From positions 1-41,860 of IMG/VR virus record IMGVR_UViG_3300036861_000334: 41,860 nucleotides of DNA. The stretch is one strand, 5' to 3'. Of this stretch, positions 2,335 to 40,466 are shown one piece after another. Below the pieces are notes generated by a model that searched no databases, was not told the origin of the DNA, and saw only the letters and a list, made by a program, of their open reading frames with translations. A program made the translations under genes and the position numbers. Numbering within the stretch: the first letter of the stretch is position 1; each line of letters opens with the position of its first letter. This stretch comes from a virus.

Positions 2335-2799
2335 ATGGGCGTTCTCAACAACCCCAAGCATGAGAAGGTCGCGCAGGAGCTCGCGAAATTCAAGTCGCCA
2401 GTCGAAGCCTCGCAGGCAGCCGGCTATCCGCCAGGATCGTCCTTCGCCGCCAACGCCCGCAAGCGTGTCCAACGACCCGACATCCGCGCCAGGGTCAAGG
2501 AAATCCAGACTGTCAGTGGCGTGATGGCGGCGGCCGACAGCGCCTATATCCAGCGCAAGCTGATCGAGATGACGGAAATCCCGCTCGACGAAGAGCAGGT
2601 CAATCCGGCCGTCCAGCTCAAGGCTCTCGAAATGCTCGGTCGCATCATCGACGTGTTCGCGCCGGAGAAGATCAAGGCGGAACTGAATATCTGGAATGAT
2701 TTCAGCCCAGACGATCAGCGCGCTCTCGCAGCAGCTCTTAGAGCAGGTCTCGCCGGCCGGAGTGAAACTCCTGACGACGAAGCTGGAGACGATAGCTGA
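2335..2799 (+). CDS. terS: Terminase small subunit
   Basis: This 154-residue protein precedes the large terminase and has the typical small-subunit layout. Residues 8-45 form a helix-turn-helix-like DNA-binding region (KVAQELAKFKSPVEASQAAG, then YPPGSSFAANA), followed by RPDIRARVKEIQ and a helical oligomerisation middle, as in Terminase_2-like proteins. It would recognise phage DNA and recruit the large subunit. Its 3' end overlaps the annotated start of the next gene by about 100 bases, so the large-subunit start may be further in. Confidence 0.75.
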   Translation: MGVLNNPKHEKVAQELAKFKSPVEASQAAGYPPGSSFAANARKRVQRPDIRARVKEIQTVSGVMAAADSAYIQRKLIEMTEIPLDEEQVNPAVQLKALEMLGRIIDVFAPEKIKAELNIWNDFSPDDQRALAAALRAGLAGRSETPDDEAGDDS

Positions 2800-3538
2800 G
2801 CAGCGTGAGAAACTGCTCGCCGCGCAGCGCCAGATCCACAGGTACTATCCCGATGATGGACCGCTGCGGCGCGAACTCTATCCGCGCCACATGGCCTTCT
2901 TCGCCGCCGGCGGCGAGCACGATCCGATCGGATGTTGGTGCCCGGAGAACTGCGACGGCTCCCCGCACCGGGAGCGCCTGGCGCTGTGCGCCAATCGCGT
3001 CGGCAAAACTGTAGGGATGGGCGGCTACGAGACCGTCCTGCACCTCACTGGACGCTATCCGTCGTGGTGGGCGGGTCATCGGTTCGATCACCCGATCGAA
3101 GTGTGGGCGGCCGGCAAGAAGAACGAGACGACCCGCGACATCATCCAGAAGGAGCTGTTCGGCCCGGTCAAATGGCGCGGCCGGACCAAGCATGTCGCGG
3201 GCACTGGGCTGATCCCAGCCGAGGACATCGGCGACATCACCTGGAAACGGGGCATCCCGGATTTCATTGATACGGCGCAAGTCAAGTCGAAGTTCGGCGG
3301 CTGGTCAACCATCGGCCTCAAGTCATATGAGCAGGGCCGCGGCGCATTCGAGGGTACGGCCAAACACCTGATCTGGCTCGACGAGGAATGCGACCTCGAC
3401 GTCTACAGTGAGTGCCGCATCCGGCTCATGGTCTATCGCGGTCATGCGCTGCTGACGTTTACGCCGCTGGAAGGGATGACGCAGCTTGTGCAAGCGTTCC
3501 TGCCGGGCGGCGTACTGCCGGGAGAGGTGAGTTTCTGA
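2696..3538 (+). CDS. terL: Terminase large subunit, ATPase half (separate ORF)
   Basis: This 280-residue ORF contains the whole packaging ATPase domain and nothing of the nuclease. A Walker A-type P-loop (NRVGKT) lies at residues 100-105, a Walker B (LIWLDEE) at 225-231, and a coupling motif (LLTFTP) at 252-257. In related podovirus terminases these continue in the same chain into the nuclease. Here the frame stops at 3536-3538, right after the ATPase, and the nuclease is encoded in the -1 frame. The start is uncertain: ATG 2696 overlaps the small-subunit gene, and GTG 2762 is an alternative. Confidence 0.8.
   Translation: MISAQTISALSQQLLEQVSPAGVKLLTTKLETIAEQREKLLAAQRQIHRYYPDDGPLRRELYPRHMAFFAAGGEHDPIGCWCPENCDGSPHRERLALCANRVGKTVGMGGYETVLHLTGRYPSWWAGHRFDHPIEVWAAGKKNETTRDIIQKELFGPVKWRGRTKHVAGTGLIPAEDIGDITWKRGIPDFIDTAQVKSKFGGWSTIGLKSYEQGRGAFEGTAKHLIWLDEECDLDVYSECRIRLMVYRGHALLTFTPLEGMTQLVQAFLPGGVLPGEVSF
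3521..3530 (+). promoter_or_regulatory. Strong internal ribosome site for the nuclease half
   Basis: GGAGAGGTGA at 3521-3530 is a near-perfect Shine-Dalgarno sequence (the run GAGGTGA fully matches) seven bases before the ATG at 3538. It lies inside the last codons of the ATPase ORF, and the stop and start share one base (TGATG). This decides the start of the nuclease ORF and argues for reinitiation rather than a chance frameshift. Confidence 0.75.
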
Positions 3539-4305
3539 TGGATGAGCCGCAGCAACTTGAAAAGCGCTCCCGCTTCGTGGTCATGGCGGGCTGGAATGAC
3601 GTCCCGCACATCACCCCCGAGATGATCGCCGAGGAGATCAAGGGCTTGCCACCGCACGAGATCGAGGCCCGCTCCACCGGCAAGCCATCGCTCGGCGCCG
3701 GCGCGATCTATCCGGTCCCGGAGAATGACATCCTATGCGATCCATTCCAGATCCCGGAGTGGATGCCGCAGTGCTACGCCCTCGACGTCGGTTGGAACAG
3801 GACGGCGGCAGTCTGGGCGGCCTGGAATCACGAAGACGATATTGTCTACCTCTACAGCGAGCACTACCGCGGCCAGGCCGAACCGGCCGTCCATGCGCAG
3901 GCGATCCACGCCCGCGGCCGATGGATACCGGGCGTCATCGATCCAGCCTCGCGCGGCCGCGGTCAGAAAGACGGCAAGCGGCTGCTGACCGAATATCAGC
4001 AGCTCGGCCTCGATGTCAGCCTTTCCGAGAATGCGCTCGAAGCTGGCATCCTTGCCGTCTGGCAGCGGCTCTCGACCGGACGCCTGAAGGTGTTCCGCAC
4101 GCTGCTCAATTGGATCAACGAGTATCGCTTCTATCAGCGCGATGAGAAGGGGCAGGTCAAAGATGGCCAGAAGGACCACCTGATGGACTGCACCCGCTAC
4201 ATCGTTCTGTCCGGGCTGGCGCGCGCGACGCTGCGGCCGGCCAACCAGTGGACGCTGGGCCAGCAGTCCGGCTTCCGCGCCGAACATAATCCGCTCGACC
4301 TATGA
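3538..4305 (+). CDS. terL: Terminase large subunit, nuclease half (separate ORF)
   Basis: This 255-residue ORF carries the RNase H-like terminase nuclease. The opening FVVMAGWNDVPHI is the usual linker found after the ATPase domain. Acidic residues at the expected places are D83 (YALDVGW), D135 (GVIDPAS) and D213/D217 (KDHLMDCTRY). It would cut concatemers during packaging. It overlaps the ATPase ORF by one base and has its own strong ribosome site. Together the two ORFs total 535 residues, within the usual range of a single-chain large terminase. Whether they act as a two-chain enzyme or are joined by frameshifting cannot be told from sequence. Confidence 0.8.
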   Translation: MDEPQQLEKRSRFVVMAGWNDVPHITPEMIAEEIKGLPPHEIEARSTGKPSLGAGAIYPVPENDILCDPFQIPEWMPQCYALDVGWNRTAAVWAAWNHEDDIVYLYSEHYRGQAEPAVHAQAIHARGRWIPGVIDPASRGRGQKDGKRLLTEYQQLGLDVSLSENALEAGILAVWQRLSTGRLKVFRTLLNWINEYRFYQRDEKGQVKDGQKDHLMDCTRYIVLSGLARATLRPANQWTLGQQSGFRAEHNPLDL

Positions 4306-21259: not shown

Positions 21260-21297
21260 GCCGCTCGCTCCCTTTCCGAATTCACATCAATTCCTCG

Positions 21298-21412
21298 CAA
21301 CCACGAGGATTTAGCGCGAGACGAAACATCAGGGCTCCATCGGCCCCGGTGATGCGTTCTCGCATCCCCCCGCTTCGCGCTTGGGTCGTGGTTGACCGGG
21401 CGCCGATGGAGG
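21298..21412 (+). ncRNA. Structured antirepressor leader, C4/CI antisense-RNA-like
   Basis: A 16-bp stem with one bulged base forms between CTCCATCGGCCCCGGT (21335-21350) and ACCGGGCGCCGATGGAG (21395-21411). Inside it is a perfect hairpin, GATGCG-TTCT-CGCATC (21351-21366), and an unpaired stretch. That stretch holds TCGCGCT (21375-21381) and TCGTGGTTG (21386-21394), exact complements of AGCGCGA (21313-21319) and CAACCACGA (21298-21306) just upstream, in nested order. The ribosome site of the antirepressor gene, GGAGG at 21408-21412, lies in the 3' strand of the stem. This is the arrangement known from P1/P7 c4 RNA and P4 CI RNA, with paired a/b and a'/b' elements. Assignment to RF01695 is an inference. 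Confidence 0.6.
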
Positions 21413-21423
21413 CATGGAAGAAA

Positions 21424-22263
21424 ATGAATGAACTGATCCCTGTCATTGTGACTGAAATCGCCGGTCGGCTGAGGCAGGCCGTCAACCTCCGGGAGTTGCA
21501 CGGCCGTCTGGAAGTAGGGCGCGACTTCTCCAATTGGGTCAAGGATCGCATCTCAAAGTACGGTTTTACCGAAAAACAAGACTATGTAATAATTGAAGGT
21601 TTGGTCTCGCCAAATTTGGCGACGTCAAAATCAAGAGCGCGGACTACCATCGAATACCACGCAACCGTTGGTATGGCAAAAGAGCTTGCCATGGTCGAGA
21701 ACAACGAAATCGGCCGTTCGATCAGGCGCTATCTGATCGATTTTGAAGAGCGATCACGCCGGCCTCTTCCGCCGGATTTTAACGAAGAATGGCCTCGTGT
21801 GGTCGGCATGGTGAAGACCTGCGTGCACAAGATCACTGAACATGAGCACGTCATTGAACACCTGAAAGCCGCCAGCGAATTGGGCATGGAGCGGCTGATT
21901 GAATTGTCGATGCAGGTTAAGGCGCTTGGTGCGCCAGCTCCGGACCTGATGCTGGCACGTGATTATGTCCCGGCGTTCGAAGTCGTCGCCGAAATGGCGA
22001 AAGTGCCGGAAGGGAAGCGCTATCCCGCTTTATGCACCTGGGTATCAAAGCATCTCCGCGTCTTCTGCGGCGACCGCAATCTGAAAAAGCTGCCGACCTA
22101 TCCAGGAACCAAAGATGCTTTCCCGCGCGATGCTGCCCACGAGTGGCTTGAGAAAGGCGGGCGTGAATTGATCTGGATTCGCGTCAACGAACATCAGGCC
22201 GGAAAATCCGGACAGAACGTCCTGCCATTCCCGTCGAATAGTCCCACGAAGCCGGGAGCGTAA
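21424..22263 (+). CDS. AntA/AntB-type antirepressor
   Basis: Residues 15-110 match the AntA/AntB antirepressor domain: VNLRELHGRLEVGRDFSNWV, then KDRISKYGF, TTIEYHATVGMAKELAMVE and RRYLIDFEE. Such proteins inactivate phage repressors and favour induction. The C-terminal part (about 170-279) is a separate domain (FEVVAEMAKVPEGKRYPALC, then WVSKHLRVFC), unassigned. The start at 21424 follows GGAGG and GGAAG. The gene is richer in A/T than its neighbours and sits between ejection protein genes, so it looks inserted as a cassette with the structured leader at 21298-21412. Confidence 0.8.
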   Translation: MNELIPVIVTEIAGRLRQAVNLRELHGRLEVGRDFSNWVKDRISKYGFTEKQDYVIIEGLVSPNLATSKSRARTTIEYHATVGMAKELAMVENNEIGRSIRRYLIDFEERSRRPLPPDFNEEWPRVVGMVKTCVHKITEHEHVIEHLKAASELGMERLIELSMQVKALGAPAPDLMLARDYVPAFEVVAEMAKVPEGKRYPALCTWVSKHLRVFCGDRNLKKLPTYPGTKDAFPRDAAHEWLEKGGRELIWIRVNEHQAGKSGQNVLPFPSNSPTKPGA

Positions 22264-39551: not shown

Positions 39552-40466
39552 TTAATCATCAAGGGGCATTTCGATCGTGCTACCTTTCTTCGGGAATGCC
39601 CGTCGGATCAGGCGATAGAATGCTTCCCAGGTCGAAGAGGCTTTCATCAGCGCGATCACGGCATGAAGGTGTTGCGCGAGCGCGGGATTGCCGACGTCCG
39701 TGGTCAACCACTGATGATGTTTCGCCAACCGCTGACCTTGTTCGTCCTTTGGATTGCGAGTCTGGAGTTCCTCAAGGAGACCAGGGGCTAATCGCTCGTA
39801 GACCAGATCATTGGTCCAATGGCCGACGACTTGTGGGCGATTAACCTTCATGCCCTTCCAGTCCCAGCCCTTGAGGCGGAACATCTCGCGATAGAATTCG
39901 TCTGGGAAGCGCTTCGCCCATGCCGCGAGTTCCTTTCGCAGGTAGGCATCAAGGATGGCCTGCAGGGCAAGCTTGTCGCGGACTTCCTGGTAGCCGGTAG
40001 CTTCATCGACCAGGGCGATAATACCGCTATGCGCCAAGCCACGCATGAGAAGGTCTGCGCGTTCGGCTACCGGCTTCTGAATTTTGGTAAGCGCACCTGC
40101 ATCGCGGGCGCGCAACCATACTTCGCAGACTTTGGGCAGAAGCGTCGCTTCGAATCCAACACGGATCGGTCCGCCCCGCGGATCGTGATATTTCCTAGGA
40201 GTGGACACCAGAGTGCGTAACTCTTCGGAAATAAAAGGCTTTAGTGATTTTGCGACCAAGAAAGCCGGCAAATCACCAGAGTCGTCGACTGTGGCGCGCT
40301 GACGTTGCTGCCAGCCGCCGGTTACCGGACCGAAGGCGGTTGTGACGCCGCCCTGGGACAGAAGTCGGGTGCCGTCCGGCAGGACGGCGCAAGGCAGACT
40401 CAAATCGCCGATCTTCAGTTCGCCGATGTGAGTTGCCTTTGGAGGAGGATTGCTCGGCTTGGTCAA
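39552..40466 (-). CDS. P63C-domain protein
   Basis: The 304-residue protein has a P63C domain at about 155-275: ALVDEATGYQEVRDKLALQA, then FYREMFRLKGWDW, HWTNDLVYERLAPGLLEEL and HHQWLTTDVGNPALAQHLHA. The N-terminal part (20-60) holds a beta hairpin with PDGTRLLSQGGVTTAFG. P63C proteins occur in phages and mobile elements; their function is not established. The start is TTG at 40466, with AGGAG eight bases upstream that overlaps the end of the upstream gene. It shares an operon with the RecT-like gene. Confidence 0.8.
   Translation of the reverse strand: MTKPSNPPPKATHIGELKIGDLSLPCAVLPDGTRLLSQGGVTTAFGPVTGGWQQRQRATVDDSGDLPAFLVAKSLKPFISEELRTLVSTPRKYHDPRGGPIRVGFEATLLPKVCEVWLRARDAGALTKIQKPVAERADLLMRGLAHSGIIALVDEATGYQEVRDKLALQAILDAYLRKELAAWAKRFPDEFYREMFRLKGWDWKGMKVNRPQVVGHWTNDLVYERLAPGLLEELQTRNPKDEQGQRLAKHHQWLTTDVGNPALAQHLHAVIALMKASSTWEAFYRLIRRAFPKKGSTIEMPLDD

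Follow-up and report, generated by a model that had tools for sequence, protein, structure and literature searches.

In the IMG/VR virus record IMGVR_UViG_3300036861_000334, whose 41,860 bases were analysed as a whole and are called the window here, the start of an antirepressor gene carries, judging from its sequence and that of its relatives, a real folded RNA of C4-like build. We propose, with a probability of roughly 55%, that this RNA is a conserved translation-controlling leader built like C4, in which the ribosome site would be opened by pairing in cis and closed by a stem, a state that RNA acting in trans would favour. The element in the window is real and not a product of chance, because about 30 homologous leaders exist and their paired segments covary.

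Structure of the element in the window

Read directly, the whole element occupies positions 21289-21411 of the plus strand, 5' of the antirepressor gene, and its parts follow one another as the P0 hairpin with a, then b, the 5' arm of the P1 stem, P2, P3 with b', a', and the 3' arm of the P1 stem; all features described in this section lie on this strand unless stated otherwise. P0 (TCCTCG-CAACCA-CGAGGA, 21292-21309) displays a in its loop and is kept in all homologues, with 95% of cells paired and compensatory changes in 5 of its 6 pairs. The P1 stem, of 16 bp with one bulge, is built from a 5' arm (CTCCATCGGCCCCGGT, 21335-21350) whose CTCC pairs with the Shine-Dalgarno GGAG, and from a 3' arm (ACCGGG-c-GCCGATGGAG, 21395-21411), supported by folding and by the homologues, in which C21401 is bulged and which ends in that Shine-Dalgarno (21408-21411); 99.8% of P1 cells are paired and 8 of the 16 pairs are double-changed. 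Between the arms lie P2 (GATGCG-TTCT-CGCATC, tetraloop TTCT, 21351-21366), with double changes in 5 of 6 pairs, and P3 (21367-21385), a short, weak CCC/GGG stem with b' in its loop that is 87.5% paired and has a double change in one of two modelled pairs. An earlier, sequence-only reading had proposed such a stem, enclosing a hairpin and an unpaired segment, and direct reading finds it where it was claimed; of the GGAGG which that reading assigned to its 3' strand, GGAG is paired whereas the fifth base, 21412, lies just outside the stem.

The enclosed part carries two segments that are exactly complementary, in nested order, to two segments upstream. Element a' (TCGTGGTTG, 21386-21394), in the junction between P3 and the P1 stem, matches a (CAACCACGA, 21298-21306), and b' (TCGCGCT, 21375-21381) matches b (AGCGCGA, 21313-21319); all four are read directly and covary with their partners, which bears out the 9 + 7 base nesting proposed from the sequence. 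Elements a and a' are the sole two copies of CAACCACGA in the window, and when the 77 nt upstream were put through 4000 dinucleotide shuffles, a nested exact 9 + 7 match arose once. The 85-nt element has a folding energy of -46.1 kcal/mol (z = -3.0), and none of 200 shuffles was equally stable.

The gene behind the element (21424-22263, 279 aa) begins with ATG at 21424 after a 12-nt spacer from GGAG and encodes an AntA/AntB antirepressor, with an AntA domain (PF08346, E 8.4e-22, 78 bits against a cut-off of 27) and a match to phrog_5817, anti-repressor Ant (E 1.1e-39). It lies inside a virion operon, between the gene for an internal virion protein and a transglycosylase-type virion gene, and its neighbours in the window encode internal virion, tail and connector proteins of podovirus type; a search for relatives through the upstream virion gene returned none. 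Elsewhere in the window, two overlapping plus-strand frames (2696-3538 and 3412-4305) match positions 221-402 and 421-590 of phrog_2, the terminase large subunit; since these are successive parts, the gene is split, through a frameshift, a programmed shift or an assembly error. Near the right end, 39552-40466 on the minus strand encodes another protein whose C-terminal part resembles an antirepressor (phrog_2384, E 7e-113; phrog_2899 Ant, E 1e-13).

Homologous leaders and covariation

The homologous leaders come from IMG/VR viral contigs, from prophage-type genome loci and from one Rhodoplanes serenus plasmid. The first pattern run against IMG/VR described the bare outer stem (CTCCATCGGC, 45-75 nt, GCCGATGGAG) and returned six stretches, five of which have the full anatomy, including the upstream a and b that were absent from the query. 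Further leaders were collected with more patterns and with two covariance models, R1 and R2. Model R2 matched 6 of 397 genomes of the order to which genome G107 belongs; 385 genomes of the class added just one. One of these genomes, G560, has a 16S gene 92% identical to Phyllobacterium/Sinorhizobium, which together with Rhodoplanes suggests, from a thin host sample, that the hosts are probably Hyphomicrobiales. Two pattern matches (L015 and L026) were judged to be chance when read, and two weak genome matches (L048 and L049) were likewise discarded on reading.

Searches with blastn found no true element among the named phages of INPHARED or the plasmids of PLSDB; the Rhodoplanes serenus plasmid, the sole named record, was reached through its cargo gene and model R2. 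The element is absent from the AntA relatives found elsewhere (L002-L005) and from the phrog_4652 relatives checked in Rhodobacterales and Gordonia, and hence it does not simply travel with the gene. No description of this leader family was found in the open-access papers searched, and it appears to be undescribed.

To assess the agreement between the arms of each stem, we scored 30 stem pairs across 28 distinct leaders. Standard pairs make up 97.5% of stem cells, and compensatory double changes occur in 19 of the 30 pairs, compared with 10.7 in shuffles. There are 125 double-changed stem cells against 31 in shuffles, representing fewer independent events than cells because some leaders are closely related; for both measures, none of 500 shuffles was as high. 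Our alignment was fitted to the structure, a bias in favour of covariation that is guarded against by slid controls, showing only 4-6 pairs with double changes, and by arms that can be read independently. In 22 leaders we assigned the a/a' and b/b' registers manually: pairing reaches 93% for a/a', where 5 of 8 positions show double changes, and 99% for the b/b' core, where all 5 positions show them. The covariation that the sequence-only reading had named as a check is thus present in the stem and in both long-range pairings.

Several pair types are found at each position of a/a' and b/b'. For b/b' they include GCGCGA/TCGCGC, AGACGC/GCGTCT, GATGCG/CGCATC and TAGTGCA/TGCACTA, and for a/a' CAGCCAC/GTGGCTG, GGCCAAG/CTTGGCC and CGACCAAG/CTTGGTCG, so that at least eight, and about ten, separate a/b types can be distinguished. 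These patterns indicate that evolution keeps a/a' and b/b' matched.

The ribosome site and the genes behind it

In every leader the P1 stem ends in GGAG or GAGG, and in 27 of 29 a start codon follows 3-12 nt past the stem; in one the distance is 20 nt, and in another (L085) a GTG lies about 6 nt past the stem, in a frame under the length cut-off used for this count. The suggestion that the stem itself could switch translation is supported by the presence of the ribosome site inside the stem in all homologues.

The genes that follow are unrelated across leaders; therefore the stem is conserved around the Shine-Dalgarno and not around a coding sequence. Antirepressors stand behind the element in five cases, namely AntA in the window, Bro-N (L018), Bro-N with KilAC (L068), a phrog_63 protein (L019) and the product in L077, which appears Bro-like by sequence resemblance only. 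A phrog_4652-like cargo recurs (L020, L047, L066, L067, L071, L073-L075, L078, L081 and likely L016), and other cargo comprises a HicB/Arc-like protein, a sigma-70 region 4/HTH protein, a DndB-like protein and proteins of unknown function. Mycobacteriophages and Gordonia phages also have homologues of the phrog_4652-like protein; the element is absent from the single Gordonia record that was checked. In L021, about 2.4 kb downstream of the element, a late-operon frame contains a LAGLIDADG-like motif (LVKYLAGLLDADGCLSF) and possibly encodes a homing endonuclease.

Upstream, in most leaders with a long upstream frame, the stop codon of that frame lies 3-41 nt before P0, and no conserved promoter-like sequence was found upstream among the leaders compared. 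Because the stop is so close in most leaders, this layout would leave little room for a promoter supplying a trans-acting RNA in a lysogen.

Relationship to C4 and other phage RNAs

C4 RNAs are cut from longer transcripts by RNase P to give an RNA of about 77 nt that acts in trans, and their a'/b' loops set specificity, a 4-nt difference separating P1 from P7 (PMC5320573). In the Rfam C4 consensus a bulged outer stem is combined with two hairpins, one closed by a tetraloop and the other by a 12-nt loop, and with 7 unpaired nt, and the distance from P2 to the P1 3' arm is 28 nt in the window versus 29 in the model. Our element shares with the C4 RNA of P1/P7 (RF01695) and its a1-b1 target RNA (RF03163) the bulged outer stem, the P2 tetraloop, b' in the P3 loop and a' in the junction, although P3 has only 2-3 bp in many leaders. 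Also common to both are an a displayed in a hairpin loop and followed by b upstream, the link to an antirepressor, and type specificity borne by a'/b'. The annotation of the phage P1 record has the same order, with a1 at 48255-48261, b1 at 48269-48276, C4 at 48343-48419 and a2/b2 further downstream.

In spite of this likeness, there is no covariance-model similarity in either direction. The window gave no Rfam 15 match at the gathering score, the element region none at E ≤ 5, and RF01695 none on the whole record at E ≤ 10, whereas the phage P1 C4 control scored 68.8 bits; the tested homologues likewise gave no Rfam match, and our model R2 did not match phage P1 C4. The sequence-only reading had named a cmsearch with the C4 model as a check, and membership of the Rfam C4 family is not supported. 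Placement of the target also differs: a' and b' match upstream sites on the same transcript, with downstream a2-b2 sites in three phages only, and the ribosome site of the controlled gene lies in the P1 stem rather than at a2 and b2. In these leaders the gene follows directly, there is no icd, a2-b2 is usually missing and the cargo is diverse. Of the C4 logic recognised by the sequence-only reading, the three-stem architecture and the nested, covarying a and b stand, and the family model and target-site placement do not; because both of the latter fail, we place the element outside the Rfam C4 family. In plan it would be C4-like, with another route to the ribosome site.

Other phage systems share single features. 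The P4 CI RNA with seqA and seqC is likewise a leader RNA complementary to upstream and, as in three of our phages, downstream sites (PMC4825925), but P4 uses premature transcription termination in an untranslated leader, whereas here the ribosome site lies in the stem. IsrK/anrP of Salmonella Gifsy-1 also involves a prophage RNA, one that switches a leader between two alternative folds and thereby uncovers or buries a ribosome site upstream of an antirepressor (PMC4825925); its fold differs, IsrK activates through orf45, and no sequence relation was seen. P22 sar controls translation of the antirepressor ant by antisense pairing (PMC12197685), but it is a simple antisense RNA without a C4 fold or ribosome-site lock.

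Stand-alone a-b sites and possible action in trans

Scanning for hairpin-a-b arrangements, we found additional same-strand sites 397, 923 and about 1106 nt downstream of the element in L017 (4389-4412, minus strand), L021 (6574-6598, minus strand) and L022 (4246-4268, plus strand), respectively. Each hairpin sits at the 3' terminus of the final cargo gene, ahead of the virion gene that follows, and has no b'-a' of its own nearby; in a scan of the whole collection for one form of such sites, stand-alone copies occurred only in these three. They resemble a2-b2 of phage P1 and seqC of P4. The genes of L017 and L022 end in ...PQPRD* and ...PQPRG* within the hairpin, which in L022 is followed by a terminator-like hairpin. 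The window scan gave no clear second site; the end of ant (22235-22263, CCCACGAAGCCGGGAGCGTAA) matches in part (CCACGA...AGCG) and might be what remains of an a2-b2 site, and this candidate (CCCACGAAGCCGGGAGCG), being a partial match only, was not counted. Only a separate or distant RNA could act on the stand-alone sites, and they are the best hint of trans action.

Such sites also fit the classical C4 mode, in which an antisense RNA of about 75 nt is cut from the operon transcript and silences the gene in trans through the a-b sites of its own leader and a2-b2 where present, the stem only making RNA and mRNA mutually exclusive products. The fold plan, the upstream a1-b1 as in phage P1, the additional sites that three phages have ahead of the next virion gene, and the processing and 4-nt specificity of known C4 RNAs speak for this account. 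We nevertheless consider it somewhat unlikely: the C4 model finds no match, a2-b2 is absent from most members, no promoter is conserved, and excision would destroy the start of the mRNA because the P1 arm ends in the ribosome site.

Predicted folding and a proposed mechanism

Minimum-energy folding, a thermodynamic prediction rather than a kinetic one and thus a crude guide to folding during transcription, gives two mutually exclusive states for the growing RNA of the window. Until the P1 3' arm is complete, the predicted fold is the cis pairing of a/a' and b/b' (17 bp); once the arm is complete, the P1 stem (about -49.6 to -54 kcal/mol) replaces this fold and the ribosome site is paired. Before the 3' arm, at least 6 a/a' pairs are predicted in 12 of 21 leaders, and the other 9 lack a predicted cis-first state. 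Predicted duplexes between a-b and b'-a' range from -22 to -30 kcal/mol.

If all of this pairing took place in cis alone, a/a', b/b' and the P1 stem could form a pseudoknot, riboswitch-like or protein-binding, that sets translation, for instance in response to translation of the upstream gene. In every leader a-b lies close upstream of the P1 stem, and the nearby upstream stop in most leaders and the absence of a conserved promoter would suit such an arrangement. It is improbable, however, for all helices together look strained, since the P1 stem abuts a' (0-1 nt) and the a-b/b'-a' pairing crosses the P1 stem; moreover, unlike those of a ligand pocket, the a and b sequences are free to differ from type to type, and stand-alone a-b sites exist. 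That the hairpins are borders of a mobile gene cassette, with the RNA incidental, we regard as highly improbable: unrelated cargo occupies late operons, in L017 and L022 at a place that terminase and prohead protease flank, and three phages have a2-b2 hairpins that close the cassette, but the stem uses G-U pairs freely, the Shine-Dalgarno and its spacing are conserved, and in most members no 3' border was found.

Under the reading that we prefer, a-b of the nascent RNA would pair first with b'-a' in cis, leaving the ribosome site open, and the emerging P1 3' arm would then let the P1 stem take over and close it. The downstream gene, here the antirepressor, would be translated only in the first, cis-paired state. 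Copies of the RNA acting in trans, from other transcripts or from a resident prophage, would occupy a-b and favour the closed state, so that silencing of the gene would scale with the amount of RNA already there and show a type specificity like that of the P1 and P7 C4 RNAs. Tentatively, and at less than even odds, we suggest that the element is a self-sensing lock, a single module that would be both antisense effector and ribosome-site lock, with a-b serving as cis key and trans address and with interchangeable specificities placed before unrelated, often regulatory, genes.

Implications

Only a few RNA immunity repressors are known from phages, the C4 and CI RNAs among them. Another family that has the C4 plan, no detectable sequence relation to C4 and a built-in ribosome site would suggest either repeated origin or very far divergence. 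Because the leaders offer numerous natural a/b specificities, and stand-alone target sites in some cases, simple reporters make it possible to test directly what role a1-b1 plays upstream of C4. The module also serves as a marker of regulatory genes in phages with otherwise uncharacterised regulation.
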